The notes beneath the pieces were generated by a model that was not told the origin of the DNA, did not search any database, and saw only the letters and a program-made list of their open reading frames with translations. The position numbers and the translations under genes are program-made. From Aselliscus stoliczkanus (Eukaryota > Chordata > Mammalia > Chiroptera > Hipposideridae), in assembly GCA_033961575.1 (NCBI GenBank), contig CM066732.1:76050687-76114686 (forward strand): DNA of 64,000 nucleotides. The letters run 5' to 3'. Shown here piece after piece: positions 40,802-64,000 of the stretch (within the stretch, counting starts at the first letter, position 1; each line of letters begins with the position of its first letter).

Positions 40802-40803
<2 letters not shown>

Positions 40804-42300: not shown

Positions 42301-42322
42301 TCCTGTTCTTAGTACCGAAAAC
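42301..42322 (-). terminator. 3' box of the variant U1 gene
   Basis: On the minus strand, just after the RNA end, GTTTTCGG...AAGAACAGGA resembles the snRNA 3' box GTTTN0-3AAARNNAGA. It is less perfect than in the four canonical copies. Confidence 0.5.
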
Positions 42323-42324
42323 GC

Positions 42325-42488: not shown

Positions 42489-42528
42489 GAGTTGCTCTGC
42501 CCGCCACGGCCCCGACTCTCGCGCTCGC

Positions 42529-44839: not shown

Positions 44840-44936
44840 GGCCGGCCGAGAGGCGCGGTGGTTAAGCGCTGGCTTGGGAAGCCAGCGGCCCCGGTTCGGT
44901 CCCACATATGAGGGCCAGTGACACTGCCCTCAAAAA

Positions 44937-44987
<51 letters not shown>

Positions 44988-44989
44988 AA
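44840..44989 (+). mobile_element. Short tRNA-derived SINE with (AATA)n tail
   Basis: Forward short-family copy with a long AATA microsatellite tail; no clear target duplication. Confidence 0.88.
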
Positions 44990-45307
44990 TGCATACCTGA
45001 ATGTGATTATTGGACAAACCCAAAATTGAAGGATAGTTTACAAAATAACTGGCCTGTAGTCTTCAAAAATGCCTGCGTAATGAAATACAAAGAGCACGTG
45101 GAACTATTTCAGATCAAAGTAGGTTAAAGAGATATGACAACTGAATGCGACGCGTGGTTTTAAATTTTCCTTTGGTATAAAGGACATCATTAGGACAATT
45201 GATGGACATTGAATAACGTCTGTAGAGTAAATAATATTGTATCAATGTTAACTTCTTGACTTTGATCATTGTAGTTGGGGTTGGTTAAAATGATCCTTTG
45301 TTTTTAG

Positions 45308-45405
45308 GAACTACGCGCCAAGAAAGGAAGCTTCCTGAAACAACCACTAATCCAAAAGGATGCTACAATACGTTTCCTTGGATCTTTCCGCAGCGAGGAC
45401 CTCAG
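45308..45405 (+). other. Possible exon of unknown transcript
   Basis: A 98-bp segment lies between a good acceptor (ctttgtttttag) and a good donor (ctcaggtgag). It is open in two frames and contains several CpG. I do not recognise a protein in either frame. It could belong to a non-coding RNA or be chance. Confidence 0.2.
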
Positions 45406-45525
45406 GTGAGCCTTCCCTGACCCTATAATCTCTAGTCTTGTGTGTTGCCTTGCTGTGCTCCGCAGCACCGACCACTCACGAAAACACCGTGGTTTTTGCT
45501 CACGCCTGGTGAAGATGCCCCTTTA

Positions 45526-45666
45526 TTTTTTATTTGTTTGGTTGTGTTTTTTATGTGCGTGTTTTTTTTGAGGGCAGTGTCACTGACCCTCATATGTGGG
45601 ATCCGAACGGGGGCCGCTGGCTTCCCAGGCCAGCGCTTAACCACCGCGCCACTCGGCCGGCCCAGG
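45526..45666 (-). mobile_element. Short tRNA-derived SINE
   Basis: Reverse short-family copy with a clean 15-bp duplication, gaagatgcccctttа-type (gaagatgccccttta). Confidence 0.92.
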
Positions 45667-46265
45667 GAAGATGCCCCTTTAACCTCCGCTCGATCTCGAG
45701 ACTTTTCTGTATGGAAGTGAAAAAGACCAACCGGGCGACCTGAAAGAGGCCACCGAACCTCCCAGGACGGAAGTGCGACGTTTCTGTTCGTTAAATTTTC
45801 GGAGACGATGCCGCACCCCTCCGCGGCCCACACGTCTACCGCGGGAACCGACGCCTTGCCAACATTCTCAGTTCGTTTTCCTTTCACTTACATTAGGTTA
45901 CTACATACTCTGAAAGAAAGATCATGAATGAGAATTAAAAGTTTCATATTAAATTGGTATCGAAACTCGATCTTCGTATTTAACGTTTAATTGACGCTGC
46001 GCGTGTCATTTTCTCTGAACCCATGGTGAGTCCAACCCCGAGCCCTGACCCATCCCCTTGGCGGGGCCTAACCGCTGGGCGCCGGGCGCGGCGAGATCCA
46101 GTCCTCTCGCGGCGAGATCCAGTCCTCTCGCCCCCCCCCCCCCAACCCCTCGCCCGAGGTCCCGGACTCGTCCCCGCGCGCCCACCTGCGCCCTCCCCGC
46201 CCGCGAGACACCGGCGGATCCGAGTGGGCCACAGGGCCGGGGACGTCACGACAAGGGCGTGGCGT

Positions 46266-46450
46266 ATGCGGATGAGCAGGGCGCGCAGGGGCTGCCGGTC
46301 GCGCTCAGCCTGCGCCCCCACGTCCCGCGCGTCCTGAGATCCAAATGCTCCCGAGGTTGCTTTCCCAGCGGGCGAAGCTGGGGCGAGGGGCCCTGAGGCA
46401 GCGAGGGTGCGGAGGCCGCGAGAGGGAAGTGACCGTGCGTGTAAAGCGAG
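46266..46450 (+). promoter_or_regulatory. U1 promoter (DSE and PSE), left outer copy
   Basis: The octamer-like ATGCGGAT is at 46266-46273 and the PSE agtgaccgtgcgtgtaaagc is at 46428-46450, starting 63 bases before the RNA. A CRE-like gacgtcacg and GC boxes lie just upstream of the octamer. The PSE differs from the human U1 PSE, as I recall it, at few positions. Confidence 0.85.
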
Positions 46451-46490
46451 GCGAGCGCGAGAGTCGGGGCCGTGGCGAGCCGAGCAACTC

Positions 46491-46654
46491 ATACTTACCT
46501 GGCAGGGGAGATACCATGATCACGAAGGTGGTTTTCCCAGGGCGAGGCTTATCCATTGCACTCCGGATGTGCTGACCCCTGCGATTTCCCCAAATGTGGG
46601 AAACTCGACTGCATAATTTGTGGTAGTGGGGGACTGCGTTCGCGCTCTCCCCTG
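46491..46654 (+). ncRNA. RNU1: U1 spliceosomal snRNA, left outer copy
   Basis: U1 is the RNA of the U1 snRNP, which pairs with 5' splice sites at the first step of spliceosome assembly and also protects transcripts from early polyadenylation. The gene is exactly 164 nt. All functional parts are present: 5' ATACTTACCTG, stem-loop I with the 70K site, stem-loop II with the U1A site, stem-loop III, the Sm site AATTTGTG, and stem-loop IV with a TTCG loop. It differs from human U1, from memory, only at position 157 (C for T), in an internal loop of stem IV. Confidence 0.97.
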
Positions 46655-46664
46655 TTCTTTTGAG

Positions 46665-46679
46665 GTTTTGAATGTCAGA
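46665..46679 (+). terminator. snRNA 3' box, left outer U1
   Basis: GTTTTGAATGTCAGA starts 10 bases after the RNA end and fits the 3' box used by the Integrator complex for 3' processing. Confidence 0.75.
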
Positions 46680-46887
46680 TTTTGGGAGTTGGCGAACTGG
46701 TGGTCTTGCAGCCTTAGACCCCCACGGACTGCTGTTAATAAATACGCTGGTGTGTTTCCGAATCGGACTTCCTTTTTTTTCTCTCAGTAAAAGATCTGTT
46801 CGTTGGCGGGTGTTTTTCCAAACCTTTCCTTCCTGTGTTGGATGAGTGGCCAAGAAATCTGCTCCATGAGCTATTTAATCACAATCT

Positions 46888-47301
46888 ACTTTTTTTTTTT
46901 TTTTTTTTAATTGTGGAATTGGAGGAGGGGGACAGACAAGTTGCTGTTCTTTTTTGTTGTTGTTGTTCTAAATTAGTCTGGTTGCGGAGGGCGTTGGTAA
47001 TTTCCCGGATGGGGCAGATCGGTCGCCGGCCCCTGGACGGCCGTGAGCGGCCGGCTCACGGCTGCTCTTGGCAACTCACACCAGCTGTGGGCCACTCATG
47101 CTGGTTGCCGGCCACTCACGGTAGCCTGCTGCAGCCTATGCCGTGGCAGCCCAGCGCCAGGTCCAGCTGTTGTTCACCATCTCAGCTGTAGAGGCCGCAG
47201 CGTCACTGGCCCTAAATATGCGATCCTACTGGGGCCCTCCCTGCTGCTCAGAATTGGCTCTCAAGCCAACTCGTAACCAACACGCCACTGGACTGGCCCC
47301 A
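46888..47301 (-). mobile_element. Long tRNA-derived SINE in the left arm
   Basis: Reverse long-family copy. Its mirror lies at 62649-63062, so it inserted before the arms were duplicated or has been copied between them. Confidence 0.88.
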
Positions 47302-47355
47302 GAATCAACATTTTTAACAAAAGATTCCCAGTTGATTCCATTCCATACACATACA

Positions 47356-47362
47356 AGATATA

Positions 47363-47412
<50 letters not shown>
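47356..47412. repeat. (TA)n(CA)n microsatellite
   Basis: TA repeats followed by CA repeats; the mirror copy is at 62538-62594. Confidence 0.97.
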
Positions 47413-47414
<2 letters not shown>

Positions 47415-47753
47415 ATTTTAGTTTTCCTGTCTGACTTTTACCTAGTGGAATTGTAAATTCCAGGAGGTCAGGGATCCTTGACTCTTGTCGACTGCTTCCT
47501 CTGTAGTTGCCTACAATAGCGCATGGTTCGCTGTAGGCTTTTAATGTACTTATTGGATTAATTCCTTGATCTCAGGCTTCAAAAAAAAAAGTTTCCCAGC
47601 AGGTTCCCAGGTTGTACCTCTGAGTCTGTCAGATTAATAATACTGTGCCCTTCCTACAGAGAAATTACAGAATTGGAAACACTCTGTTCAGCTTCATCAG
47701 TAATGTCTCTGAACACCATTTGCTTGAAGCCCCTAGGTGAGAGCTATTCAACA

Positions 47754-47779
47754 ACAACAACAACAACAACAACAACAAC
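47754..47779. repeat. (CAA)n microsatellite
   Basis: About nine CAA units, mirrored at about 62175-62203 in the right arm. Confidence 0.95.
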
Positions 47780-49905
47780 GGTCCCTGAGCCCAGGGAGAG
47801 GATCCTCTAGTCCAACCATCAGCCTCCAACCTAGCCTCCCTTCAGCCCCTTCTCACTTTAGGAGAATGTGATAATTGTAGAGACATCAGAAAAAGGCAGG
47901 TCAAGGGTAAGCACCTTATTTTTCTCACATACCTGCCCCTTCTGGTCATCCACTGCTCCACCCTTGTTCAAGCTGCAGGGGGCTCAAATTTTTACTTTTA
48001 CCCTTTTAAGGTTTCTGACAGGGCCTGACAATTAAAAGGACATAAAACAGATTAACCGGAAGAAAGCATACAGATTTTCACATGTACATGGGAGCCCTCA
48101 TAGGAAAGTGACAACCCAAAGAAGTGAGGCTAGCTAGGCAGGTCTCCAAGCAGCCCTGGTTCCTTTTATTGGAGAACAGTATATGGATACAAGATCTAGT
48201 GCTTGGTGTTTATTGATACTGGTGGTGTATCATTGTTATTAGGCCCTGTACCTATTTTATTCAATGGATTCTAATCTATGATTATTATTATTATCATCAT
48301 CTTGATTTGGTCAGTGGGAGCTCTTTCAAACCGGCTCCTGTGTGCTTGACATGTCCCCCTCCCCCTTACCCCTCCCCTCCATCAGTCTCTGTACATTTCT
48401 TAACTTTTTATTACAGATACAAGCTCCTGGCTCAGCTCCGATTTTCCCGGCCTGAGAGCCTGGCCTCCCCCGGTGCTGCCCACAATGACCTAGGCTCACT
48501 TTTTGGCGCTGTGAGACTTACTGGGAAGCGATGGAGAAAAGATATCGGGCTACGCGGGGAGACCACGTCCAGGGCTTCGCCAGGCAGATAGATACCAAGC
48601 CCGCCGTGGTGGCCAGTCTGGGGGCTTGGCTCCCCTCCTCTGCCCACTCGCCCGAATCGTTTGGCAGAGACGGCCGCTTCCTGAAATAGATCAAGGTTCT
48701 GTGGCTTCCTGGAGAGGCACTGGACTCCAAAGGGGAGGGGCAGAAAACACGGGTGTCCCGGTTGGACTCCTCGTCCTGGCTCCATGTATTTTACAAGCGT
48801 TTCAGATCCCATCTGGTGTGTGTCCACCACCCAAGACCGTTCATTCACTCCGCGGATGTCCCACAGGAGCACAGCAAGCCACACCGAAGAGGCCTTCCCT
48901 CGCTCTACTGTAGTGTGTCGCTAAGCCCCCCTCCCCCGACTGAGCGGCAGGCACCTCCGCACCTTCACCTTCGGATGAGGGGCAGTGCCTCTGAGGCCTC
49001 CTGCTACTCTCTCAGTGACACCTCAGACAGGAAGAGGCGGCCATCCTGGGGCTCACACTCGCGTATGCTGGTCACCAAAACCCACTGCCCCTACCCCCTG
49101 CCCCCCTCCCACCCCCGTACCCTCGAAGCACCAAAGCTAGGTTCACACCTCCACATCCCTCAGAGGCCATATCTAATGAAGGTCTAAGGTTCTGTCTTTG
49201 TTCCCTGTCCGGCTGGCCTCCGCAGATGGTGACACTCGAGGCTGGGGGCTCTCGGTAGCTGCAGAGCAATAGAATCTTCCTGAAGGTCCCCTGTCAGACT
49301 GCAATGGCACAGCCTCAGGCTCAGCCCGCCTTAGCCGTGGGTCAGCGGGAAAGGCTGAGGCTGCAGCGAGGAGACCGGGAGCAGCTCCGGCTCGCCAGGA
49401 GAGGAAGACGTGCCGGGAAACGCAGTCTCCAGTTTGAGAGGCAGTACCAGAGCCGAAAAGAGCTGGTGGGCTCAGGGCGCAGGACTCAGGGGAGGGCGGC
49501 AGCTGGGCCCCCGAGGCTTCAGAGAGCCACATTCCCATCGCGGTTCCACGGCTGAGTCCTCTCTAGGAGGCGGTCGGTACGGCTGTGTACATCGAATCTC
49601 TGGAGTTTCCTTCCCACAGGAGGGAAGAGAGCAAGGACTTCTCTGCGCCCACACTCCCTCGCCCCACACGGCTTTGTCCCCAAGGGGAAGCCGGCGCCTT
49701 CCTGGCGAAAGCCCAGTCCCTTTCTTCCCGGGTGCTCCCTGGTTGGGCCTCCGCATCCTCCTCTTCAGGCCCTGCCAATTTAGCCTTAAGGGCCCATCGC
49801 CAAAATTGGCCACATGCTCAGAGCCCACAGGCCTGCTGCGGACTAAGGTGGGGCTGGACGCCAGGCGGCGGCGCCCTTCCCGGTGGCGCAAAAGCGTCAG
49901 GCACT
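47780..49905. other. Left-arm sequence between outer U1 and tRNA-Tyr
   Basis: GC content rises after 48400 and CpG dinucleotides become common. A ZNF143-like site may lie at 49408-49428 (the complement reads actgcgtttcccggcacg). Several long overlapping open frames exist on both strands. None resembles a known protein, and frames on opposite strands overlap, as expected by chance in GC-rich DNA. It could be a promoter-type CpG island. Confidence 0.5.
49890..49893 (-). terminator. Pol III T-run after tRNA-Tyr, left arm
   Basis: TTTT on the minus strand, 13 bases after the tRNA end; a minimal Pol III terminator. Confidence 0.7.
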
Positions 49906-49995
49906 TCCTTCGAGCCGGAGTCGAACCAGCGACCTAAGGATGTCCGTACGGGTCTAGCCTACAGTCCTCCGCTCTACCAGCTGAGCTATCGAAGG
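49906..49995 (-). tRNA. tRNA-Tyr (GTA) with 17-nt intron, left arm
   Basis: Minus strand: acceptor stem CCTTCGA pairs with TCGAAGG, A box TAGCTCAGCTGG, anticodon GTA, B box GGTTCGACTCC, discriminator A. A 17-nt intron lies one base 3' of the anticodon, the standard place, and must be removed by the tRNA splicing endonuclease. The mature RNA is 73 nt before CCA addition. Identical to the right-arm copy, intron included. Confidence 0.97.
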
Positions 49996-50196
49996 GCGCA
50001 CGCTGCCAGGGTCGGGTCATTGCTTTTTCTTGAGATGACACACGCCAAGACGCCTTGGGTTGGGCGTGTTGGGGCGCGGTGGGAAGCCCCTTTGAAGAGA
50101 GCCGAGTACACGCTGCCGCCGCTCCCTCTCCCGGCGGGCGGAGCGAATCCTCAGCGCGTGGCTGCTCCCGGGGCTTAGTGGTGGCCCGGGCCTCGG

Positions 50197-50216
50197 ACTA
50201 CGATTCTCAGGATGCC
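50197..50216 (+). promoter_or_regulatory. ZNF143/Staf-like site, left arm
   Basis: ACTACGATTCTCAGGATGCC matches the ACTACAATTCCCAGNATGC consensus of ZNF143 at most positions. ZNF143 serves many snRNA and tRNA-Sec type promoters and bidirectional CpG promoters. It lies about 200 bases upstream of tRNA-Tyr. Confidence 0.55.
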
Positions 50217-50689
50217 TGGGCCCAAGCTCTCACCAGTTGCCTCGTTTACCCTCCCCGCGCCCCTTTCTGCAGTGGGGGACGACAGCAGCCCGTGGCCAGA
50301 AAGCGGGTAAGAGGGGCCTTGGCGAAACGGCTGCGTGGGGTGGGTGGGAGAGGCCTCCCGGGGTGGGGGGAAGGAGGAGGGCCCACCCGAACGCGCACGG
50401 GGTATGCCGCCGGCTGCGAACCGCCTAGTCAGCCACCTGCTGGTTTTTAAGTAAGTGCCTTTAGTTCAAAATTATCCTTACGCCAAAATGTATGTTTGGT
50501 GTAGCATATTCAAAGCCAACATCGTCTTGCCCAGATCATGCAGGTCTCCTGGTTGGTCTCCCTGCTGTGGTCCTCGCCACCCTGGCAATGAGAGTGATTT
50601 TATTTTTTTTCCCCCGGGGATGGGGGTGGGGAGAGGAGGGGTCAGCTCAAGCCATCCTCTGCGCAAAACCTTCTGGTTCGCTGAGATTT

Positions 50690-51235
50690 AAAGCCTTACA
50701 ATGGTCTAGGGGACCCTCATGATCTTACCCCCACCCAGTCACCTCTCTGACTTAATTTCGTACAACTTTTTAATTTTGCTCGGGGCACAGGGCCTCCGTG
50801 CTATTCTCTATACACCGTCCCTACCTAGGCCTTTGCTCCTGTTGATCTTTGTGCTAAGGATGCTCTTTCTTCGTGGACATCCCCGCGACAAAACTCCCTC
50901 ACCCCACTTTGGGCCTTTGCTCACATGACACCTTCTCAGTGTGCCCCCTTCTGACCACCCAGTTTAGCACACCACCTGCCCCTTACTGTAACTCCGACCC
51001 CACCTTCTCTCATTTGTTTTCTGTTTTCATAGCTCTTAACTTCTAACATACGAATTAATTTACCCATTGATTCCATTGTCAATTTCCTCCCACCCCACTC
51101 CCCTTCTCTAGCTAAAATATGAGCACCAAGAGGTCTTTTGTTCCCCAGTTCCTGAACAGTGTTTGGTACCTGGTATGCACTCAAGAAACAGTTGTTGAAT
51201 GGACAGATTCTCAATGTCATCAAAGAGATCAGAAT
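50690..51235 (+). mobile_element. L2 LINE fossil in the left arm
   Basis: Text such as 'tttgggcctttgctcacatg' and 'tggtatgcactcaagaaaca', ending 'gttgttgaatgg', is a typical L2 3' end. Mirrored at about 58725-59270. Confidence 0.65.
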
Positions 51236-52315
51236 ATAAAAGAATGAAACCAGCGTTCACCCAGGAGGAGATGCAGAGTGTCTTGTTTGATCACAGAACA
51301 GAGAGTTTCTTAAGTTGAGAACGGCAGAGCTCCCAGCACATAACCACCCATCCCAACCGCCTCCTGCACTGAAGAGACTTGACTGGACGGACTCTAGCTT
51401 GGCTTCTAGCAGCATCGGGTCCCGTCCCTAGGATTGACCTCCAGCCCCCATTAAACGCCTGTCCCAGAAAAGTTCAACATCTGACCGCCCGTTCTTAGAG
51501 CATTTATGTAACAGGGCTTACCACTGTGCATACGGATCTCTTACAACTCCCAAGTGTCCCTCTCGAGGACCGAGAGCCATTCCTTTGAAATGTAATCGAG
51601 AAGGACAGAGCCTCTGTCTTCCCTCCCAGTGCCCGGGAGGATAACACCCTAAACTCCAGTCATCGCCAGCCAACGAACACAGCTGACCTAATTGACTTTA
51701 TACTGAGCGACCCTTTGTCGTTTTTCACGTCTCTGATTCTACTGAGCCCCCTCCCTCTCATTCTCCCTTTAAAGTGCCCACGTCACCTCTGCACAAATGG
51801 GAATGGAGCTCAGCTTTTCCCTTACTGTCAGTAGTTACTGAATAAAATGTTCTTCGCCACTTTCACTACAGTCTGCTGTGTTTATCCTTGACAGAGTCCA
51901 AGTCAGAAGGGACCAGAGGGCACTTTGTGGGGCCACCCTGTGTGCGTGCTGGGGCAGTACGAGGGGAGAAGGTTGGAGGGCGCCTGACTCCGACCACTGG
52001 GGCTCCCGGGAGGCCCCCCACCTGGCTGCGATGGAAGGGGGGGCCGTTCAGCGCTTTAACCGGGTTTTCTTTCTACAAAACTTAGAATCCTGGGTGCTCG
52101 GTCCAGCGTTCTTAGGTTAGGCCACTGCATATTCTGAAGCACGTTGTGTCCCTTTGACTCAGAAAGACCCCATGAGTAAAACATAAGCATGATTTCTTAT
52201 TCAGCGGCTTAGCGCTCACTATCAACTGGTAAAAGGGCCTTTCCTGAGTTTTCGATTACTTGAAGATGAGATCGAGCAGGCGAGGACAAAAATGGGCAGA
52301 AATTTTCTTCTGCAG
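51236..52315. other. Left-arm sequence before the inner U1
   Basis: No gene recognised. The stretch near 51770-51900, with tgaataaaatgttcttcg, has an LTR-like polyadenylation motif, but no ends were found. Confidence 0.4.
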
Positions 52316-52545
52316 TGAGGAAGGTGAGACCAACCCGGAGCCCTGACCCACCCCCCTCGGTGGGGCCTAACTGCTGGGCGCCGGGCGCGGCGAGATCCGG
52401 TCCTCTCGGAGGTCCCACCCCCCACCCCCCGCCCCGAGGTCCGGGACTGGTCCCCGCGCGCCCACCTGCGCCCTCCCCGCCCGCGAGACAACGGCGGATC
52501 CGAGTGCGCGACAGGGCCGGGGACGTCACGACAAGGGCGTGGCGT

Positions 52546-52729
52546 ATGCGGATGAGCAGGGCGCGCAGGGGCTGCCGGTCCCGCTCAGCCTGAGCCCCAC
52601 GTCCCGCGCGTCCCGAGATCCAAATGCCCCAGAGGTTACTCTCCCGACGGGCGAGGCTGGGGCGAGGGGCCCTGAGGCAGCGAGGGTGCGGAGGCCGCGA
52701 GAGGGAAGTGACCGTGCGTGTAAAGCGAG
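52546..52729 (+). promoter_or_regulatory. U1 promoter (DSE and PSE), left inner copy
   Basis: ATGCGGAT at 52546-52553 and the PSE at 52707-52729, with spacing equal to the outer copy within one base. Homology with the outer U1 gene begins near 52322, about 450 bases upstream of the RNA. Confidence 0.85.
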
Positions 52730-52769
52730 GCGAGCGCGAGAGTCGGGGCCGTGGCGAGCCGAGCAACTC

Positions 52770-52933
52770 ATACTTACCTGGCAGGGGAGATACCATGATC
52801 ACGAAGGTGGTTTTCCCAGGGCGAGGCTTATCCATTGCACTCCGGATGTGCTGACCCCTGCGATTTCCCCAAATGTGGGAAACTCGACTGCATAATTTGT
52901 GGTAGTGGGGGACTGCGTTCGCGCTCTCCCCTG
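52770..52933 (+). ncRNA. RNU1: U1 spliceosomal snRNA, left inner copy
   Basis: 164 nt, identical by eye to the left outer copy at all positions. All protein-binding loops and the Sm site are intact. It lies 6279 bases downstream of the outer copy in the same direction, with unrelated 3' flanks. Confidence 0.97.
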
Positions 52934-52941
52934 ATGAGTCG

Positions 52942-52958
52942 GTTATTCAAAAATTAGA
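52942..52958 (+). terminator. snRNA 3' box, left inner U1
   Basis: GTTATTCAAAAATTAGA, 9 bases after the RNA end, fits the 3' box pattern. Confidence 0.75.
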
Positions 52959-53485
52959 TTGCTTGCGTTTCCCGAGCTGCTCGTGTCGCGTGACATACCT
53001 GCAGCCGTGGCGAAAAAAGATAAGGTTCTCCACTACGAAAGAAGTCACCGACGACAACCCAGTCTCGCGCCTGCCCCTTTCTCTCTCTCTCTCTCTCCTC
53101 TGAAAATAAGGGTGCAAGTAAGTGACCGCCACAGCTTAGAGGCACCCAGGCTGGAATTCCCAGGGCATTGGAGTCCAGGACAGAAATGCGCTTTTTGGTT
53201 TATAGACAAATCCCAACTTTTGAGTTAAAATTCCATTAGCACCACCTTTATTTTCATGACAAACTAAGTGGGAAGATTTTTCAATTTTTGCAATCCCTAA
53301 AGTTGAGGGGAGTGACTGACTAAAGCTGATTTCCTTTCTTCAGAATCTTTTTCCTAGGGACCAAACCAGAGGACCTGCGGGAAATTATCATGCAATGCTG
53401 TTACAGGTTTTGCCCGTTCTGTAAAAGCAGAAACCTGCTGTCTTCAATACTCGACTACTCCCCCCAGTTGTCCTAATTGGTTTTG

Positions 53486-53488
<3 letters not shown>

Positions 53489-53530
<42 letters not shown>

Positions 53531-53568
53531 TAGTAGTAGTAGTAGTAGTACTAGTAGTAGTAGTAGTA
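53489..53568. repeat. (TG)n and (TAG)n microsatellite at the inner edge of the left arm
   Basis: About 19 TG units, then TAG units with one TAC interruption. The same tract in reverse orientation bounds the right arm (56343-56427). Arm similarity ends here. Confidence 0.95.
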
Positions 53569-54239
53569 GATAGTTTACTACAATGTTGAGTGAGTGAAAT
53601 TTTAACAATTTATGCCCTTAAGCTGACAAACATGCCCTCAAATTTTACTTCAGTTTCACAATACTGCAGTTTGTCTAGTGATCACGGCCTTATGTCCCTG
53701 TGAATCAAGGAATTCTAACAGTCAAAATGTCACTTGTGCATTCCTCTTTAGTTTCATAGGCTACCAGCACATCATATACATATTAAATAATTATATTCCT
53801 CTCTTGGGACATATTCCTATTTTCCTGTTAAATGAGCTGACAAAATAGGAGCGTCCTGAAACCTTTTAGAAATCCTTTGCCATAAATATAGTTCTCCATA
53901 AGTAAAAACTAACAAGAATTTAGACTCATCCACTAGAGGAACAGAAAAGCAGAACAGAGATCAACTACAGACATAAACTTTGGAGATGACTAGATAATCT
54001 GAAAGTGAGGATAACTGCAGAATTAGGGACTACAGGGCTTGTTAATGGAATGACGAATTTATTTTTCTAAGATATTGTACAAATCTATATATTGGTCAAC
54101 TATTTTATCAAATACAAATTACTTCTTTAGAGTGATTGCTCTTTTGAAATTACCTCATTTTTTAATTGACTCTCGGCTAGGTCTGGAGGAACACAAATCT
54201 GTGTGTGCCCTCAAAGAGAGTAGGTCACTTATTACCAGG

Positions 54240-54784
54240 TGTCAGGTCCTGCGTGGCAAGGGCAAGTGGGACACGAGAGGGGTGACGCAGATTAAAGAAA
54301 AACAAGACAGAAGAAAGATAAGAGCGAGACAAAGGGACTCAGCCAAAGAAGACTGAGCCCAAGGGACTCAGCCAAAGAAGACTGAGCCCCGAATCGGGTC
54401 AGCGCATAGCTTTTATTGAGAATTTTCAAGGAAGCAAACTGTAACAAATCATTAACCGTGGTTTGTAGTTCTCAGGATTTACACAGTCTTTTACTCCCCT
54501 GTAAGTGCTCTCTCCAGGGTGCACTGTGACTTGCTCTTCCATTAAAGGATTTATCTTGTTTTACACTGTGATAACCTCTGAGACTCAGACCCAGTCTCTG
54601 CCTATCATCTAAAGAATGCTTACCATGACTACCTAGCCATTATCCCAAATTCCAGCAGCTAGACTCTCAGGGAGTATACTTGAATTATTACTAAAAGACT
54701 AGCTGTTACTTTGTTTTAGGGTAAAAGCATCTAAAGTTTTATTCCTATGTAAATACAAAACCTAGCAATTAAAGGGGTCTCACA
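54240..54784 (-). mobile_element. Solo-LTR-like endogenous retrovirus remnant
   Basis: On the minus strand the element begins TGTGAGACCCC and ends CCTGACA (545 bp). It has a promoter-like middle and ctcaataaaagctatgcg as the R-region polyadenylation signal. A 29-bp unit is duplicated in tandem at 54332-54389. No internal viral genes were seen next to it and no target duplication was found. The class is uncertain. Confidence 0.55.
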
Positions 54785-55637
54785 CCACTGTATCTTACAG
54801 AGGGCTGTATCTGTTTCTTAAAGCTTCAGCATCTGTTGCTGCAACAAGGCACTAAATGAAGGAATTTACACAAGGCTGTTAACATAACTCATGGTCAGCA
54901 AGCTGCCTGGAACTCTCATGGCCTGGAGACCTTTGGCCTCTGAGGAGACTTTTCACAGCAGAGCCCTTAGGCAAATGCATCAGCTTCTCACAGGCCTGAG
55001 TTTGTCAGAGGCCTGTGCCTCAGTTTCCAAGGGGCTTGAGTCCCCAATATCTCAGTTCAGGGGTTCCCCACGGAACTACCGCGTGGCTTGGGTTGTCTCC
55101 CCTCTTTTAGGAGATCTTACCCGTCTTTGGCTGCGTAGTTAGCTCATTGGGGTACCACAGGAACATGTCACAAGTGTAGTGAATATATTGTCTCCTATAG
55201 GAGAAAAGGCACATGGGTTCATAGAGGCAGGAGATATTACATGACCAACCATAAGGCAGCACCCCTAATATCCAGTGCTGAGCAGGGCAATGTGGCCTTG
55301 TCAGACACTGGGGTGCTGTCAGCTTCCCACAACCAGGTAAAGAAATTGTGTCTTCATCCACTTTCCCTCTTTCCAGGAGTTGATTTAGGCTTGGAGGGCT
55401 AAAGTAGGATGCTGGAGGACCAGAGGGACAAACAGCAGAGAAAAGAGGAAGAGGGTCCTGTAAAAGAGAAATTGTCATTCTTACATTTCCTCTCCATTGT
55501 TCTCAATCTTTCCTCCTATCTATCCAAATAATGTTATGCTTTCTCTTAAAATGATATTAACCTTATTGTGAAGTCCTGCACGACAAAGAGCAGTGAAACT
55601 CTGGAAGGGCGGCAAAAGATTAAATAAAAACAAGCCT

Positions 55638-56065
55638 TGGGCCGGCCAAGTGCCGCATTGGTTAAGAGCTGGTTTTGGGATGCCAGTGGCCCCGGTTCGG
55701 ATCCCACATGTGAGGGCCAGTGACACTTGCCCTCTACAGCTAACAACAGCTCCACCTGGAGCTGGGCTGTGCGAGCCCCGGCGACGGTGTAGGCTGCAGC
55801 CCCTGCTGCAGTGGGCTGCCATGGGCTACAGTGAGTGGCCGGCAGCCAGCGTGAGCTGCCAATAGCCGCCGTGAGCGACCATCCAGAGGCCGGCTACCGA
55901 TCTGCCTCATCCGGGAAGAGCGCAATGACGATACCAACATGGGCCAGTGAGGTGACGTCCTCCGAAACTAGACTGAAGAAAAAACAGACAGCAACTTCTC
56001 TGTTCCCCTTCCCCAATTCCCCAACACTGTTCCCTTCCCCTGATTCCCCAATAAAATCTTTAAAA
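55638..56065 (+). mobile_element. Long tRNA-derived SINE in the spacer
   Basis: Forward long-family copy ending attccccaataaaatcttta. It lies only in the spacer, so it came after, or outside, the arm duplication. Confidence 0.9.
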
Positions 56066-56069
56066 AGCA

Positions 56070-56342
56070 AGAGGCCAATGCTTTGGTGCAAGCTGGGGCC
56101 AAGGAACCAACAGTCTCTTAAGGACTGAAGGTCCCACATCTGGCCAAGCCAAAGCTTTTATTGAGAAACACCAAAAGAAGAAAGGTTTTATTCTCTCCAA
56201 GGTCTGTGATAACGTGCCTGCTGGCTATCTCCCTGCACTCCCCTTCGCATTACAAGTACTGTGCCTTTATGCACCCACGCTTTTACCCCAGGGGATGGCT
56301 CCAGGATCAAGAAGCCATCCGATGAGGGAGACAGCCTGTCTT
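56070..56342 (-). mobile_element. LTR-like fragment next to the right arm
   Basis: The minus strand contains gagaataaaacctttcttc and then tttctcaataaaagctttgg, a doubled polyadenylation motif like an LTR R region. The ends are not visible; the left part may have been cut by the SINE at 55638. Confidence 0.35.
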
Positions 56343-56378
56343 CTACTACTACTACTAGTACTACTACTACTACTACTA

Positions 56379-56427
<49 letters not shown>
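56343..56427. repeat. (CTA)n and (CA)n microsatellite at the inner edge of the right arm
   Basis: Reverse copy of the tract at 53489-53568, with some unit-number differences. Confidence 0.95.
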
Positions 56428-56429
<2 letters not shown>

Positions 56430-56817
56430 CAAAACCAATTAGGACAACTGGGGGGAGTAGTCGAGTATTGAAGACAGCAGGTTTCTGCTTTTACAGAACG
56501 GGCAAAACCTGTAACAGCATTGCATGATAATTTCCCGCAGGTCCTCTGGTTTGGTCCCTAGGAAAAAGATTCTGAAGAAAGGAAATCAGCTTTAGTCAGT
56601 CACTCCCCTCAACTTTAGGGATTGCAAAAATTGAAAAACCTTTCCACTTAGTTTGTCATGAAAATAAAGGTGGTGCTAATGGAATTTTAACTCAAAAGTT
56701 GGGATTTGTCTATAAACCAAAAAGCGCATTTCTGTCCTGGACTCCAATGCCCTGGGAATTCCAGCCTGGGTGCCTCTAAGCTGTGGCGGTCACTTACTTG
56801 CACACTTATTTTCAGAG

Positions 56818-56841
56818 GAGAGAGAGAGAGAGAGAGAGAGA

Positions 56842-56877
<36 letters not shown>
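56818..56877. repeat. (GA)n microsatellite, expanded
   Basis: About 60 bp of GA with small interruptions. The left-arm counterpart near 53081-53099 is a much shorter CT tract. Confidence 0.95.
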
Positions 56878-56880
<3 letters not shown>

Positions 56881-56997
56881 GGCAGGCGCGAGACTGGGTT
56901 GTCGTCGGTGACTTCTTTTGTAGTGGAGAACTTTATCTTTTTTCGCCACGGCTGCAAGTATGTCACGCGACACGAGCAGCTCGGGAAACGCAAGCAA

Positions 56998-57014
56998 TCT
57001 AATTTTTGAATAAC
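56998..57014 (-). terminator. snRNA 3' box, right inner U1
   Basis: Mirror of 52942-52958, same sequence on the minus strand. Confidence 0.75.
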
Positions 57015-57022
57015 CGACTCAT

Positions 57023-57186
57023 CAGGGGAGAGCGCGAACGCAGTCCCCCACTACCACAAATTATGCAGTCGAGTTTCCCACATTTGGGGAAATCGCAGGG
57101 GTCAGCACATCCGGAGTGCAATGGATAAGCCTCGCCCTGGGAAAACCACCTTCGTGATCATGGTATCTCCCCTGCCAGGTAAGTAT
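57023..57186 (-). ncRNA. RNU1: U1 spliceosomal snRNA, right inner copy
   Basis: 164 nt, identical by eye to the left inner copy. It points at the spacer, toward its mirror gene 4.1 kb away. All functional loops and the Sm site are intact. Confidence 0.97.
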
Positions 57187-57226
57187 GAGTTGCTCGGCTC
57201 GCCACGGCCCCGACTCTCGCGCTCGC

Positions 57227-57410
57227 CTCGCTTTACACGCACGGTCACTTCCCTCTCGCGGCCTCCGCACCCTCGCTGCCTCAGGGCCCCTCGCCCCAGC
57301 CTCGCCCGTCGGGAGAGTAACCTCTGGGGCATTTGGATCTCGGGACGCGCGGGACGTGGGGCTCAGGCTGAGCGGGACCGGCAGCCCCTGCGCGCCCTGC
57401 TCATCCGCAT
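57227..57410 (-). promoter_or_regulatory. U1 promoter (PSE and DSE), right inner copy
   Basis: PSE at 57227-57249 and octamer-like element at 57403-57410, mirror of the left inner promoter. Confidence 0.85.
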
Positions 57411-57634
57411 ACGCCACGCCCTTGTCGTGACGTCCCCGGCCCTGTCGCGCACTCGGATCCGCCGTTGTCTCGCGGGCGGGGAGGGCGCAGGTGGGCGCGC
57501 GGGGACCAGTCCCGGACCTCGGGGCGGGGGGTGGGGGGTGGGACCTCCGAGAGGACCGGATCTCGCCGCGCCCGGCGCCCAGCAGTTAGGCCCCACCGAG
57601 GGGGGTGGGTCAGGGCTCCGGGTTGGTCTCACCT

Positions 57635-59742
57635 TCCTCACTGCAGAAGAAAATTTCTGCCCATTTTTGTCCTCGCCTGCTCGATCTCATCTTCAAGTAA
57701 TCGAAAACTCAGGAAAGGCCCTTTTACCAGTTGATAGTGAGCGCTAAGCCGCTGAATAAGAAATCATGCTTATGTTTTACTCATGGGGTCTTTCTGAGTC
57801 AAAGGGACACAACGTGCTTCAGAATATGCAGTGGCCTAACCTAAGAACGCTGGACCGAGCACCCAGGATTCTAAGTTTTGTAGAAAGAAAACCCGGTTAA
57901 AGCGCTGAACGGCCCCCCCTTCCATCGCAGCCAGGTGGGGGGCCTCCCGGGAGCCCCAGTGGTCGGAGTCAGGCGCCCTCCAACCTTCTCCCCTCGTACT
58001 GCCCCAGCACGCACACAGGGTGGCCCCACAAAGTGCCCTCTGGTCCCTTCTGACTTGGACTCTGTCAAGGATAAACACAGCAGACTGTAGTGAAAGTGGC
58101 GAAGAACATTTTATTCAGTAACTACTGACAGTAAGGGAAAAGCTGAGCTCCATTCCCATTTGTGCAGAGGTGACGTGGGCACTTTAAAGGGAGAATGAGA
58201 GGGAGGGGGCTCAGTAGAATCAGAGACGTGAAAAACGACAAAGGGTCGCTCAGTATAAAGTCAATTAGGTCAGCTGTGTTCGTTGGCTGGCGATGACTGG
58301 AGTTTAGGGTGTTATCCTCCCGGGCACTGGGAGGGAAGACAGAGGCTCTGTCCTTCTCGATTACATTTCAAAGGAATGGCTCTCGGTCCTCGAGAGGGAC
58401 ACTTGGGAGTTGTAAGAGATCCGTATGCACAGTGGTAAGCCCTGTTACATAAATGCTCTAAGAACGGGCGGTCAGATGTTGAACTTTTCTGGGACAGGCG
58501 TTTAATGGGGGGCTGGAGGTCAATCCTAGGGACGGGACCCGATGCTGCTAGAAGCCAAGCTAGAGTCCGTCCAGTCAAGTCTCTTCAGTGCAGGAGGCGG
58601 TTGGGATGGGTGGTTATGTGCTGGGAGCTCTGCCGTTCTCAACTTAAGAAACTCTCTGTTCTGTGATCAAACAAGACACTCTGCATCTCCTCCTGGGTGA
58701 ACGCTGGTTTCATTCTTTTATATTCTGATCTCTTTGATGACATTGAGAATCTGTCCATTCAACAACTGTTTCTTGAGTGCATACCAGGTACCAAACACTG
58801 TTCAGGAACTTGGGAACAAAAAGACCTCTTGGTGCTCATATTTTAGCTAGAGAAGGGGGAGTGGGGTGGGAGGAAATTGACAATGGAATCAATGGGTAAA
58901 TTAATTCGTATGTTAGAAGTTAAGAGCTATGAAAACAGAAAACAAATGAGAGAAGGTGGGGTCGGAGTTACAGTAAGGGGCAGGTGGTGTGCTAAACTGG
59001 GTGGTCAGAAGGGGGCACACTGAGAAGGTGTCATGTGAGCAAAGGCCCAAAGTGGGGTGAGGGAGTTTTGTCGCGGGGATGTCCACGAAGAAAGAGCATC
59101 CTTAGCACAAAGATCAACAGGAGCAAAGGCCTAGGTAGGGACGGTGTATAGAGAATAGCACGGAGGCCCTGTGCCCCGAGCAAAATTAAAAAGTTGTACA
59201 AAATTAAGTCAGAGAGGTGACTGGGTGGGGGTAAGATCATGAGGGTCCCCTAGACCATTGTAAGGCTTTAAATCTCAGCGAACCAGAAGGCTTTGCGCAG
59301 AGGATGGCTTGAGCTGACCCCTCCTCTCCCCACCCCCATCCCCGGGGGAAAAAAAATAAAATCACTCTCATTGCCAGGGTGGCGAGGACCACAGCAGGGA
59401 GACCAACCAGGAGACCTGCATGATCTGGGCAAGACGATGTTGGCTTTGAATATGCTACACCAAACATACATTTTGGCGTAAGGATAATTTTGAACTAAAG
59501 GCACTTACTTAAAAACCAGCAGGTGGCTGACTAGGCGGTTCGCAGCCGGCGGCATACCCCGTGCGCGTTCGGGTGGGCCCTCCTCCTTCCCCCCACCCCG
59601 GGAGGCCTCTCCCACCCACCCCACGCAGCCGTTTCGCCAAGGCCCCTCTTACCCGCTTTCTGGCCACGGGCTGCTGTCGTCCCCCACTGCAGAAAGGGGC
59701 GCGGGGAGGGTAAACGAGGCAACTGGTGAGAGCTTGGGCCCA
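57635..59742. other. Right-arm sequence between inner U1 and ZNF143-like site
   Basis: Mirror of 50217-52320. It holds the reverse L2 fossil (about 58725-59270). No gene was recognised; open frames mirror those of the left arm. Confidence 0.5.
58725..59270 (-). mobile_element. L2 LINE fossil in the right arm
   Basis: Mirror of the left-arm L2 copy. Confidence 0.65.
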
Positions 59743-59762
59743 GGCATCCTGAGAATCGTAGT
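59743..59762 (-). promoter_or_regulatory. ZNF143/Staf-like site, right arm
   Basis: Mirror of 50197-50216, unchanged. Confidence 0.55.
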
Positions 59763-59963
59763 CCGAGGCCCGGGCCACCGCTAAGCCCCGGGAGCAGCCA
59801 CGCGCTGAGGATTCGCTCCGCCCGCCGGGAGAGGGAGCGGCGGCAGCGTGTACTCGGCTCTCTTCAAAGGGGCTTCCCACCGCGCCCCAACACGCCCAAC
59901 CCAAGGCGTCTTGGCGTGTGTCATCTCAAGAAAAAGCAATGACCCGACCCTGGCAGCGTGCGC

Positions 59964-60053
59964 CCTTCGATAGCTCAGCTGGTAGAGCGGAGGACTGTAG
60001 GCTAGACCCGTACGGACATCCTTAGGTCGCTGGTTCGACTCCGGCTCGAAGGA
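59964..60053 (+). tRNA. tRNA-Tyr (GTA) with 17-nt intron, right arm
   Basis: Plus strand copy. Exon 1 is 59964-60000 with the anticodon at 59997-59999, the intron is 60001-60017 and exon 2 is 60018-60053. A and B boxes and all stems are intact. The intron contains gtac, which can pair with the anticodon, as usual for tRNA-Tyr precursors. Confidence 0.97.
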
Positions 60054-60065
60054 AGTGCCTGACGC

Positions 60066-60069
60066 TTTT
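60066..60069 (+). terminator. Pol III T-run after tRNA-Tyr, right arm
   Basis: TTTT 13 bases after the tRNA end. Confidence 0.7.
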
Positions 60070-62170
60070 GCGCCACCGGGAAGGGCGCCGCCGCCTGGCG
60101 TCCAGCCCCACCTTAGTCCGCAGCAGGCCTGTGGGCTCTGAGCATGTGGCCAATTTTGGCGATGGGCCCTTAAGGCTAAATTGGCAGGGCCTGAAGAGGA
60201 GGATGCGGAGGCCCAACCAGGGAGCACCCGGGAAGAAAGGGACTGGGCTTTCGCCAGGAAGGAGCCGGCTTCCCCTTGGGGACAAAGCCGTGTGGGGCGA
60301 GGGAGTGTGGGCGCAGAGAAGTCCTTGCTCTCTTCCCTCCTGTGGGAAGGAAACTCCAGAGATTCGATGTACACAGCCGTACCGACCGCCTCCTAGAGAG
60401 GACTCAGCCGTGGAACCGCGATGGGAATGTGGCTCTCTGAAGCCTCGGGGGCCCAGCTGCCGCCCTCCCCTGAGTCCTGCGCCCTGAGCCCACCAGCTCT
60501 TTTCGGCTCTGGTACTGCCTCTCAAACTGGAGACTGCGTTTCCCGGCACGTCTTCCTCTCCTGGCGAGCCGGAGCTGCTCCCGGTCTCCTCGCTGCAGCC
60601 TCAGCCTTTCCCGCTGACCCACGGCTAAGGCGGGCTGAGCCTGAGGCTGTGCCATTGCAGTCTGACAGGGGACCTTCAGGAAGATTCTATTGCTCTGCAG
60701 CTACCGAGAGCCCCCAGCCTCGAGTGTCACCATCTGCGGAGGCCAGCCGGACAGGGAACAAAGACAGAACCTTAGACCTTCATTAGATATGGCCTCTGAG
60801 GGATGTGGAGGTGTGAACCTAGCTTTGGTGCTTCGAGGGTACGGGGTGGGAGGGGGCAGGGGTAGGGGCAGTGGGTTTTGGTGACCAGCATACGCGAGTG
60901 TGAGCCCCAGGATGGCCGCCTCTTCCTGTCTGAGGTGTCACTGAGAGAGTAGCAGGAGGCCTCAGAGGCACTGCCCCTCATCCGAAGGTGAAGGTGCGGA
61001 GGTGCCTGCCGCTCAGTCGGGGGAGGGGGGCTTAGCGACACACTACAGTAGAGCGAGGGAAGGCCTCTTCGGTGTGGCTTGCTGTGCTCCTGTGGGACAT
61101 CCGCGGAGTGAATGAACGGTCTTGGGTGGTGGACACACACCAGATGGGATCTGAAACGCTTGTAAAATACATGGAGCCAGGACGAGGAGTCCAACCGGGA
61201 CACCCGTGTTTTCTGCCCCTCCCCTTTGGAGTCCAGTGCCTCTCCAGGAAGCCACAGAACCTTGATCTATTTCAGGAAGCGGCCGTCTCTGCCAAACGAT
61301 TCGGGCGAGTGGGCAGAGGAGGGGAGCCAAGCCCCCAGACTGGCCACCACGGCGGGCTTGGTATCTATCTGCCTGGCGAAGCCCTGGACGTGGTCTCCCC
61401 GCGTAGCCCGATATCTTTTCTCCATCGCTTCCCAGTAAGTCTCACAGCGCCAAAAAGTGAGCCTAGGTCATTGTGGGCAGCACCGGGGGAGGCCAGGCTC
61501 TCAGGCCGGGAAAATCGGAGCTGAGCCAGGAGCTTGTATCTGTAATAAAAAGTTAAGAAATGTACAGAGACTGATGGAGGGGAGGGGTAAGGGGGAGGGG
61601 GACATGTCAAGCACACAGGAGCCGGTTTGAAAGAGCTCCCACTGACCAAATCAAGATGATGATAATAATAATAATCATAGATTAGAATCCATTGAATAAA
61701 ATAGGTACAGGGCCTAATAACAATGATACACCACCAGTATCAATAAACACCAAGCACTAGATCTTGTATCCATATACTGTTCTCCAATAAAAGGAACCAG
61801 GGCTGCTTGGAGACCTGCCTAGCTAGCCTCACTTCTTTGGGTTGTCACTTTCCTATGAGGGCTCCCATGTACATGTGAAAATCTGTATGCTTTCTTCCGG
61901 TTAATCTGTTTTATGTCCTTTTAATTGTCAGGCCCTGTCAGAAACCTTAAAAGGGTAAAAGTAAAAATTTGAGCCCCCTGCAGCTTGAACAAGGGTGGAG
62001 CAGTGGATGACCAGAAGGGGCAGGTATGTGAGAAAAATAAGGTGCTTACCCTTGACCTGCCTTTTTCTGATGTCTCTACAATTATCACATTCTCCTAAAG
62101 TGAGAAGGGGCTGAAGGGAGGCTAGGTTGGAGGCTGATGGTTGGACTAGAGGATCCTCTCCCTGGGCTCA
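60070..62170. other. Right-arm sequence between tRNA-Tyr and outer U1
   Basis: Mirror of 47780-49890. It is GC-rich to about 61500, with a possible second ZNF143-like motif (actgcgtttcccggcacg near 60533-60550). No gene was recognised. Confidence 0.5.
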
Positions 62171-62537
62171 GGGACCGTTGTTGTTGTTGTTGTTGTTGTT
62201 GTTGAATAGCTCTCACCTAGGGGCTTCAAGCAAATGGTGTTCAGAGACATTACTGATGAAGCTGAACAGAGTGTTTCCAATTCTGTAATTTCTCTGTAGG
62301 AAGGGCACAGTATTATTAATCTGACAGACTCAGAGGTACAACCTGGGAACCTGCTGGGAAACTTTTTTTTTTGAAGCCTGAGATCAAGGAATTAATCCAA
62401 TAAGTACATTAAAAGCCTACAGCGAACCATGCGCTATTGTAGGCAACTACAGAGGAAGCAGTCGACAAGAGTCAAGGATCCCTGACCTCCTGGAATTTAC
62501 AATTCCACTAGGTAAAAGTCAGACAGGAAAACTAAAA

Positions 62538-62538
62538 T

Positions 62539-62588
<50 letters not shown>

Positions 62589-62594
62589 TATATC
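62538..62594. repeat. (TG)n(TA)n microsatellite
   Basis: Mirror of the tract at 47356-47412, with a different repeat number. Confidence 0.95.
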
Positions 62595-62648
62595 TTGTAT
62601 GTGTATGGAATGGAATCAACTGGGAATCTTTTGTTAAAAATGTTGATT

Positions 62649-63062
62649 CTGGGGCCAGTCCAGTGGCGTGTTGGTTACGAGTTGGCTTGAGAGCCAATTC
62701 TGAGCAGCAGGGAGGGCCCCAGTAGGATCGCATATTTAGGGCCAGTGACGCTGCGCCCTCTACAGCTGAGATGGTGAACAACAGCTGGACCTGGCGCTGG
62801 GCTGCCACGGCATAGGCTGCAGCAGGCTACCGTGAGTGGCCGGCAACCAGCATGAGTGGCCCACAGCTGGTGTGAGTTGCCAAGAGCAGCCGTGAGCCGG
62901 TCGCTCACGGCCGTCCAGGGGCCGGCGACCGATCTGCCCCATCCGGGAAATTACCAACGCCCTCCGCAACCAGACTAATTTAGAACAACAACAACAAAAA
63001 AGAACAGCAACTTGTCTGTCCCCCTCCTCCAATTCCACAATTAAAAAAAAAAAAAAAAAGTA
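62649..63062 (+). mobile_element. Long tRNA-derived SINE in the right arm
   Basis: Mirror of the left-arm SINE; a few substitutions separate the two copies. Confidence 0.88.
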
Positions 63063-63269
63063 GATTGTGATTAAATAGCTCATGGAGCAGATTTCTTGGC
63101 CACTCATCCAACACAGGAAGGAAAAGTTTGGAAAAACACCCGCCAACGAACAGATCTTTTACTGAGAGAAAAAAAAGGAAGTCCGACTCGGAGACACAGC
63201 AGGGTATTTATTAACAGCAGTCCGTGAGGGTCTAAGGCTGCAAGACCACCAGTTCGCCAACTCCCAAAA

Positions 63270-63284
63270 TCTGACATTCAAAAC
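63270..63284 (-). terminator. snRNA 3' box, right outer U1
   Basis: Mirror of 46665-46679. Confidence 0.75.
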
Positions 63285-63294
63285 CTCAAAAGAA

Positions 63295-63458
63295 CAGGGG
63301 AGAGCGCGAACGCAGTCCCCCACTACCACAAATTATGCAGTCGAGTTTCCCACATTTGGGGAAATCGCAGGGGTCAGCACATCCGGAGTGCAATGGATAA
63401 ACCTCGCCCTGGGAAAACCACCTTCGTGATCATGGTATCTCCCCTGCCAGGTAAGTAT
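63295..63458 (-). ncRNA. RNU1: U1 spliceosomal snRNA, right outer copy
   Basis: 164 nt, equal to the left outer copy except for one base: RNA position 58 is T here and C in the other copies (GAGGTTTAT against GAGGCTTAT). The base lies in the stem of stem-loop II, where a C-G pair becomes a T-G wobble. Everything else is intact. Confidence 0.96.
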
Positions 63459-63498
63459 GAGTTGCTCGGCTCGCCACGGCCCCGACTCTCGCGCTCGC

Positions 63499-63683
63499 CT
63501 CGCTTTACACGCACGGTCACTTCCCTCTCGCGGCCTCCGCACCCTCGCTGCCTCAGGGCCCCTCGCCCCAGCTTCGCCCGCTGGGAAAGCAACCTCGGGA
63601 GCATTTGGATCTCAGGACGCGCGGGACGTGGGGGCGCAGGCTGAGCGCGACCGGCAGCCCCTGCGCGCCCTGCTCATCCGCAT
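63499..63683 (-). promoter_or_regulatory. U1 promoter (PSE and DSE), right outer copy
   Basis: PSE at 63499-63521 and octamer-like element at 63676-63683, mirror of the left outer promoter. Confidence 0.85.
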
Positions 63684-64000
63684 ACGCCACGCCCTTGTCG
63701 TGACGTCCCCGGCCCTGTCGCCCACTCGGATCCGCCGGTGTCTCGCGGGCGGGGAGGGCGCAGGTGGGCGCGCGGGGACGAGTCCGGGACCTCGGGCGAG
63801 GGGTTGGGGGGGGGGGGCCGAGAGGACTGGATCTCGCCGCGAGAGGACTGGATCTCGCCGCGCCCGGCGCCCAGCGGTTAGGCCCCGCCAAGGGGATGGG
63901 TCAGGGCTCGGGGTTGGACTCACCATGGGTTCAGAGAAAATGACACGCGCAGCGTCAATTAAACGTTAAATACGAAGATCGAGTTTCGATACCAATTTAA

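Follow-up and report, generated by a model that had tools for sequence, protein, structure and literature searches.

A palindrome of about 31.4 kb, in which six U1 genes form three mirror pairs beside one tRNA-Tyr pair, was found between SNX6 and EAPP in the bat Aselliscus stoliczkanus. Two arms of 14.3 kb enclose a spacer of 2.77 kb (Table 1). The window, the whole stretch of 64,000 nucleotides that was analysed, ends inside the right arm; an extra 40 kb of the same assembly was used for the full arm extent, and coordinates above 64000 continue the window numbering beyond its edge. As a whole, the locus is best explained, with slightly more confidence than doubt and on the basis of sequence, by an inverted duplication of an old U1 site followed by gene conversion from arm to arm, the result probably being the main U1 locus.

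Table 1. Features of the palindrome and its left flank, in window numbering.
Feature	Positions	Strand	Remarks
SNX6 coding stretches	5030..36721	+	residue ~173 to end, with introns; tblastn; left neighbour of palindrome
Left arm	39295..53570	+	mirror of 70669-56339
U1 gene e	42325..42488	-	left arm, outer, away from spacer; RF00003 169.2 bits; 9 differences from a
Promoter block of e	42489..42742	-	U1 promoter
Promoter block of a	46236..46490	+	about -255 to -1
U1 gene a	46491..46654	+	left arm, toward spacer; RF00003 174.3 bits
tRNA-Tyr(GTA)	49906..49995	-	Rfam RF00005 56.6 bits; ARAGORN with introns; 17-nt intron at 37/38; TTTT downstream
Promoter block of b	52516..52769	+	U1 promoter
U1 gene b	52770..52933	+	left arm, toward spacer; RF00003 174.3 bits; RNA identical to a, c
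Spacer, ~2.77 kb	53571..56338		single copy; SINE-bearing interspersed repeat at ~55638-56066
Right arm	56339..70669	-	window shows 56339..64000; 6,669 bases run past window end
U1 gene c	57023..57186	-	right arm, mirror of b; RF00003 174.3 bits
Promoter block of c	57187..57440	-	U1 promoter
tRNA-Tyr(GTA)	59964..60053	+	identical mirror copy; Rfam, ARAGORN with introns
U1 gene d	63295..63458	-	right arm, mirror of a; RF00003 172.7 bits; one substitution from a, n.58
Promoter block of d	63459..63713	-	U1 promoter
U1 gene f	67461..67624	+	right arm beyond window; identical mirror of e; RF00003 169.2 bits

Alignment of the arms gave 14,202 identical columns out of 14,248 (99.68%), which rules out a chance origin of their likeness; two long arms more than 99% identical around a short spacer make this a large palindrome. 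An earlier note had described an inverted repeat at 45949..64000 with near-identical arms of at least 7.6 kb. These arm parts are present (45949-53573 and 56336-64000), but the true arm length is 14.3 kb, and the check on longer sequence to the right confirmed the palindrome, with arm ends at 39295 and 70669. Position 45949 was rejected as an arm edge since it merely mirrors the last base of the window. The spacer has the size that the note gave it (2.8 kb) and is not duplicated, but it is not unique, as it holds an interspersed repeat. Two SINEs were found in each arm, and an early reading of the arms as free of SINEs was withdrawn. A Pfam search with ten ORFs returned nothing above the curated cut-off.

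The suggestion that the locus lies in the EAPP-SNX6 region was confirmed. SNX6 coding sequence, found with a human SNX6 query, lies on the left, and the EAPP coding sequence begins at 73771, to the right of the palindrome and beyond the window. In agreement with this, part of a paper on a human deletion lists EAPP, RNU1-27P, RNU1-28P and SNX6, seemingly in map order (PMC7336736). RNU1-27P and RNU1-28P (14q13) thus share the EAPP-SNX6 neighbourhood with the bat genes, whereas two copies are named in that part of the paper and six U1 genes are present here (PMC7336736). Since the human list places both genes between EAPP and SNX6, this interval is probably an old U1 site that was expanded in this genome. 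The host chromosome is presumably an autosome, judging by human 14q13. Pfam gave no match for two SNX6 stretches, and one SNX6 coding stretch also matches sorting nexin-5 in PDB.

All six U1 genes are full-length matches to RF00003, with scores of 169.2-174.3 bits against a gathering score of 69.5. Two U1 genes and one tRNA-Tyr gene per arm had been claimed; four U1 genes (172.7-174.3 bits) and both tRNA genes were indeed recovered there, but a third U1 pair, e/f, had been missed. Likewise, convergence of the U1 genes on the spacer holds for a to d, but the outer pair points outward. All six share one sequence between -70 and -40, which is compatible with a PSE near -60, and the 3' box is good in b/c, fair in a/d and irregular in e/f, both elements being judged by eye against the consensus. 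Homology between the U1 units stops at the last base of the RNA. The differences among a, b and e in promoter and RNA body are clumped; the use of this as proof of a mosaic history was withdrawn, because common descent of such clumps cannot be read from three types of unit when an outgroup is lacking.

The tRNA genes show a cloverleaf, a GTA anticodon, an intron at 37/38 and a downstream T run. A tRNA-Pro identity, which came from a bacterial-code scan, was rejected, as intron-aware ARAGORN gives Tyr(GTA) with a 17-nt intron. The view that one palindrome mixes U1 genes, which belong to Pol II, with a tRNA gene of the Pol III class is supported. Its components are ordinary and its architecture is unusual. 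Among open-licence papers, searches listed no report of U1 palindromes or U1-tRNA clusters, and such reports may exist in print.

U1 is required for nearly all splicing, and the rest of the assembly was searched for it. The promoter of gene b matched six places, all of them inside the palindrome; at the sensitivity of this search there was no U1 promoter outside it. A genome-wide list of U1-like matches, which is a lower bound because 40 of 9,644 candidates were scored, holds 34 outside the palindrome: 32 look like retrocopies and two lie in one diverged cluster, which resembles a variant-U1 locus. A pattern search with at most two mismatches listed 23 places. Three are U1 genes of the palindrome, which has six, and the remaining 20 were all among the 34 already. 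At n.157 the base of genes a-d is carried by all 28 readable retrocopies (the other four of the 32 end before it), which indicates that RNAs of the a-d type were once reverse-transcribed. Taken from sequence, the palindrome is probably the main canonical-U1 locus of the genome.

The arms differ by 46 substitutions, 23 of them transitions, and 24 indel events. The longest indel is at most 41 bases and all five of at least 6 bases sit in simple repeats, and neither arm therefore has a transposable element that the other lacks. Single-base changes in short runs of C or T make up at least six of the 24, and three of these fall within a stretch of 15 bases; six apparent substitutions at 49101-49112 in a first alignment were rejected, as they represent three one-base C-run indels. 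The substitutions are unevenly spread. Over 19 bins the variance/mean ratio was 2.9, a value attained by 0.015% of 20,000 uniform placements, and it was 2.2 (P 0.002, 5,000 placements) for the 33 substitutions that remained once a 3' flank of 200 bp had been removed at every U1 gene. The outer 3 kb of the arms holds 20 of the 46 against 9.7 expected (P 0.0005), three of the 20 also lying in a U1 3' flank, and the inner 3 kb shows no excess (10 of 46). The longest substitution-free gap was not significant once U1 3' flanks were removed (P 0.06); in the in-window arm part with nearby changes merged, the gap gave P 0.04 and 0.09.

It is this uneven divergence that favours gene conversion, which appears somewhat likelier than a young duplication. 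The second arm may have arisen by copying no more than roughly a million years ago and have diverged little without any conversion, a serious possibility that falls short of an even chance. Such an event would also yield 99.68% identity, as a divergence of 0.32% would build up in under about one million years at a rate typical of mammals. Moreover, the outer junction on the left appears to be the derived one: an L1-like element is intact across the right edge, judged by one other copy, and flips orientation at the left edge. The uneven spread and the excess in the outer 3 kb speak against a young duplication; local differences in mutation rate could give uneven divergence too. Upkeep of the RNA gene copies by gene conversion, as proposed earlier, agrees with the uneven divergence and falls short of proof. 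Under the preferred reading of duplication followed by conversion, an old mammalian U1 site would have grown by an inverted duplication, after which sequence would have passed between the arms, so that much of each arm was reset and the outer ends less efficiently. Each gene would be transcribed separately, U1 by Pol II from its own PSE and tRNA-Tyr by Pol III; the palindrome would contribute gene dosage and sequence upkeep, and no new kind of transcription.

That two haplotypes or hairpin reads were misassembled as an inverted repeat is very improbable. The one-base indels in short C or T runs do resemble residual long-read errors, and the share of transitions, just half, points the same way. 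Against this, the whole stretch is without N inside a 162-Mb contig, the arms join different flanks (SNX6 and EAPP) and enclose a single-copy spacer, and a haplotype duplication would not be expected to yield mirror-image copies around a spacer. The haplotype-duplication error that the earlier note had feared is thus largely answered by the distinct flanks and by the number of substitutions and indels.

The known systems offer partial parallels. Portions of two papers describe several identical U1 genes and expressed variants at human RNU1 (1p36) and RNVU1 (1q21) (PMC13083260, PMC7073466); multiple identical genes plus variants are also present here, in a compact palindrome at another chromosomal site. 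According to sections of another study, mammalian X palindromes are kept by GC-biased gene conversion, with arms more than 99% identical and, in human, a GC content of 46.3% against 41.2% in the flanks (PMC8981503). The arm identity and the raised GC are shared; unlike them, this palindrome has neighbours on both sides that are autosomal in human, and it bears housekeeping RNA genes. GC is 54.9% in the arm part 45949-53573 (51.3% without RNA units), 45.1% in the spacer and 38.2% in the SNX6 stretch, the high arm value being partly due to RNA genes and CpG islands. A GC value for 36.8-42.2 kb, first taken as flank, was set aside because this stretch reaches into the arm. The RNU2 array, in which U2 snRNA copies are kept alike by concerted evolution (part of PMC4291461, citing Pavelitz et al.), is similar in that multiple copies of one snRNA gene are kept alike, homogenisation being a candidate process at the palindrome, and differs in being tandem rather than made of inverted pairs. 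U1 gene copies are said in the same source to evolve in concert (PMC4291461).

Concerted evolution of U1 is hard to catch at work, and a compact palindrome whose flanks differ lends itself well to such a test, as the differences between its arms can be tallied, followed across related species and held against the places where snRNA transcription raises mutation. Such loci are likely to be collapsed in assemblies from short reads, and similar ones may therefore have gone unnoticed. A bolder and rather doubtful idea is that almost all canonical U1 comes from this one autosomal palindrome, its arms serving as mutual repair templates against the high mutation rate of actively transcribed snRNA genes, a rate that would reveal itself in the crowding of arm differences on the 3' side of U1 genes. 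Twelve of the 46 substitutions lie in a total of 510 bp of U1 3' flank, a range picked after looking (circular shifts, P 0.005); with 100 to 500 bp taken at each gene P was 0.005 to 0.009, and with 50 bp it was 0.30. If the idea is true, U1 3' flanks would evolve at about ten times the pace of the remaining arm, and this would also account for homology of the U1 units ending where the RNA does.

Whether or not these readings hold, genes e and f may be decaying, which would leave four useful U1 genes; the case is evenly balanced. The pair differs from a at nine places in 164 nt but at only two in the promoter between -112 and -1, its 3' box departs from the consensus, and the combination of bases that e/f show at n.19, 20 and 27 occurs in none of the 32 retrocopies. 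The retrocopies were, however, selected by likeness to a and b and are somewhat biased against e/f-type copies. A T at n.53 in four of the 32 was rejected as a mark of e/f origin, because it is a CpG site and the other e/f bases are absent. In favour of working genes, the Rfam score is high (169.2 bits), the promoter is retained, and the pair keeps the splice-site-pairing 5' end and both loop sequences that bind protein, with an Sm site altered in its last base only.

The earlier note described the last 18 kb of the window as folding back on itself. It was found that both arms (45949-53573 and 56336-64000) and the four U1 genes in them are present, but that the palindrome had been drawn too small. 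The left limit at 45949 is an artefact of the window end; the arms extend past the window and carry a third U1 pair. An assembly search located the window at G000:C6:76050687-76114686 (contig C6 of the species' own assembly, G000), and the full limits come from an arm alignment that included the next 40 kb (locus L009). Between the arms, 14,202 of 14,248 aligned columns are identical (99.68%), with 46 substitutions and 24 indel events. The palindrome is a real structure, unusual but not alien.

Coordinates of the palindrome, its flanking genes and the second U1 cluster (window positions except for contig C13)
Feature	Position	Strand	Remark
SNX6 matches	4967-36721	+	seven, about residue 173 to the end
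Left arm, full	39295-53570		
U1 gene e	42325-42488	-	inside the window
Right arm, full	56339-70669		
U1 gene f	67461-67624	+	in L009, beyond the window
EAPP stretches	73771-95632	+	six, 85-96% identity
Second U1 cluster	about 25,267,997-25,277,247		L015, G000 C13; three copies, 97.6, 97.0 and 87.2% to U1a

Sequence context was inspected for 15 of the 24 indels. Nine fall in simple-repeat arrays or in a long run of T, and a minimum of six alter a short C or T run by one base. Such one-base differences (49098-49112, with three in 15 bases; 51100; 51136; 51445) could be residual long-read errors. Transitions make up only 23 of the 46 substitutions, below their usual share in mammalian DNA.

Gene e, absent from the earlier note, is identical to f; this outer pair points outward, while a-d point inward. 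Together with two tRNA-Tyr genes, each with a 17-nt intron, the palindrome holds six U1 genes within 31.4 kb. It fills about 31 of the 37 kb separating the coding regions of SNX6 and EAPP. SNX6 was traced by tblastn with a human SNX6 protein (two matches 100% identical, the others including intron read-through), and EAPP likewise with an EAPP protein, its last stretch matching Pfam Eapp_C (3.3e-33). A human deletion paper lists the gene order EAPP, RNU1-27P, RNU1-28P, SNX6 (PMC7336736), so the U1 site probably arose before human and this mammal diverged. The expansion here may be younger than the site, and an old mammalian U1 site was probably reshaped into a palindrome.

Across the 2.19-Gb assembly, the 250-bp upstream sequence of U1b has six matches, every one of them inside the palindrome. 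A search with the arm sequence gave at least 34 U1-body matches elsewhere; these 34, a lower bound, were all retrieved and inspected, and 32 are retrocopy-like. A direct repeat of at least 7 bases adjoins 30 of the 32, L023 and L049 being the exceptions; some of these repeats are just 7 bases long and may be coincidental. In 26 of the 32 the stretch after the RNA is at least 60% A. The remaining two matches lie on C13, beside a third copy at 87%. Promoters there are diverged and AT-richer, yet alignable at stretches that we take to be DSE- and PSE-like. Both close C13 copies differ from a at n.22, 60, 62 and 77 (positions in U1 RNA). Since three retrocopies (L035, L046, L050) also differ at three or four of these positions, the actual bases being compared at n.60 only, the C13 cluster was probably expressed. 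The e/f bases at n.19, 20 and 27 do not co-occur in any of the 32 retrocopies; the one at n.19 recurs by itself in L025, and those at n.123 and 133 in L045.

The earlier note proposed that gene conversion maintains the RNA gene copies. Compared with uniform placement, arm substitutions form clumps (P 0.00015; P 0.002 without the U1 3' flanks), and 20 of the 46 fall in the outer 3 kb (9.7 expected; 3 of the 20 within a U1 3' flank), which fits conversion because exchange is expected to fail near the end of homology. The inner 3 kb hold 10, without excess. A very young inverted duplication, for which conversion is not needed, would account for the 0.32% divergence, and local mutation rates could produce the clumps. 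Moreover, the longest substitution-free gap falls short of significance once the 3' flanks are left out (P 0.06), and a test confined to the window, with nearby changes merged, gives a weak result (P 0.04 and 0.09). Clumping and the outer excess nevertheless favour conversion, which is on balance the likelier process. We lean slightly towards an old U1 site that underwent inverted duplication and arm-to-arm conversion, the palindrome probably being the main U1 locus; young duplication without conversion is a somewhat less probable account.

Both outer arm edges (39234-39295; 70668, beyond the window) lie in a presumably L1-like element. It is unbroken across the right edge, judged from one copy in L043, and changes orientation at the left, which therefore appears to mark the derived junction.

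The 170-bp stretches downstream of the three U1 pairs, 510 bp in all, contain 12 of the 46 substitutions where 1.6 are expected (clumps at 42251-42293, 46722-46824 and 52999-53037). This density is about 10 times that of the rest of the arm, and P is 0.005 under circular shifts preserving clumping, for a window chosen post hoc. No substitution falls within 250 bp upstream (2.4 expected) and one falls in the RNA body (492 bp; 1.6 expected). A 3' bias would fit transcription continuing beyond the RNA end. Such a hotspot would explain why homology among the unit types a, b and e ends at the RNA's last base, while promoter and gene remain alike. That the palindrome supplies nearly all canonical U1, its arms templating repair against high mutation of transcribed snRNA genes, seems rather unlikely. 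Between -199 and -113, unit a alone differs at ten sites, of which one is an indel; within the RNA body, e alone differs at nine. A mosaic history is not deduced from these clumps, since telling whose history they record would take an outgroup in addition to the three unit types.

The arm part 45949-53573 has 54.9% GC (51.3% outside RNA units) and the spacer 45.1%; raised arm GC is likewise described for primate X palindromes (PMC8981503). A 95-bp SINE core occurs 27 times in 39.3 kb left of the arms and 24 times in 33.3 kb to the right, as against two per arm (10.0 expected, P 0.003), at mirror positions. This shortage is compatible with either constraint or purging through conversion. One repeat, some 430 bp long (55639-56066, 28996-29432, 32858-33296, 34097-34566) starts with the SINE core and continues into other sequence. 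Among the SNX6 coding stretches, a tRNA-Ile-like match (29878-29952, 45.6 bits) with a mismatched acceptor stem is perhaps SINE-derived.
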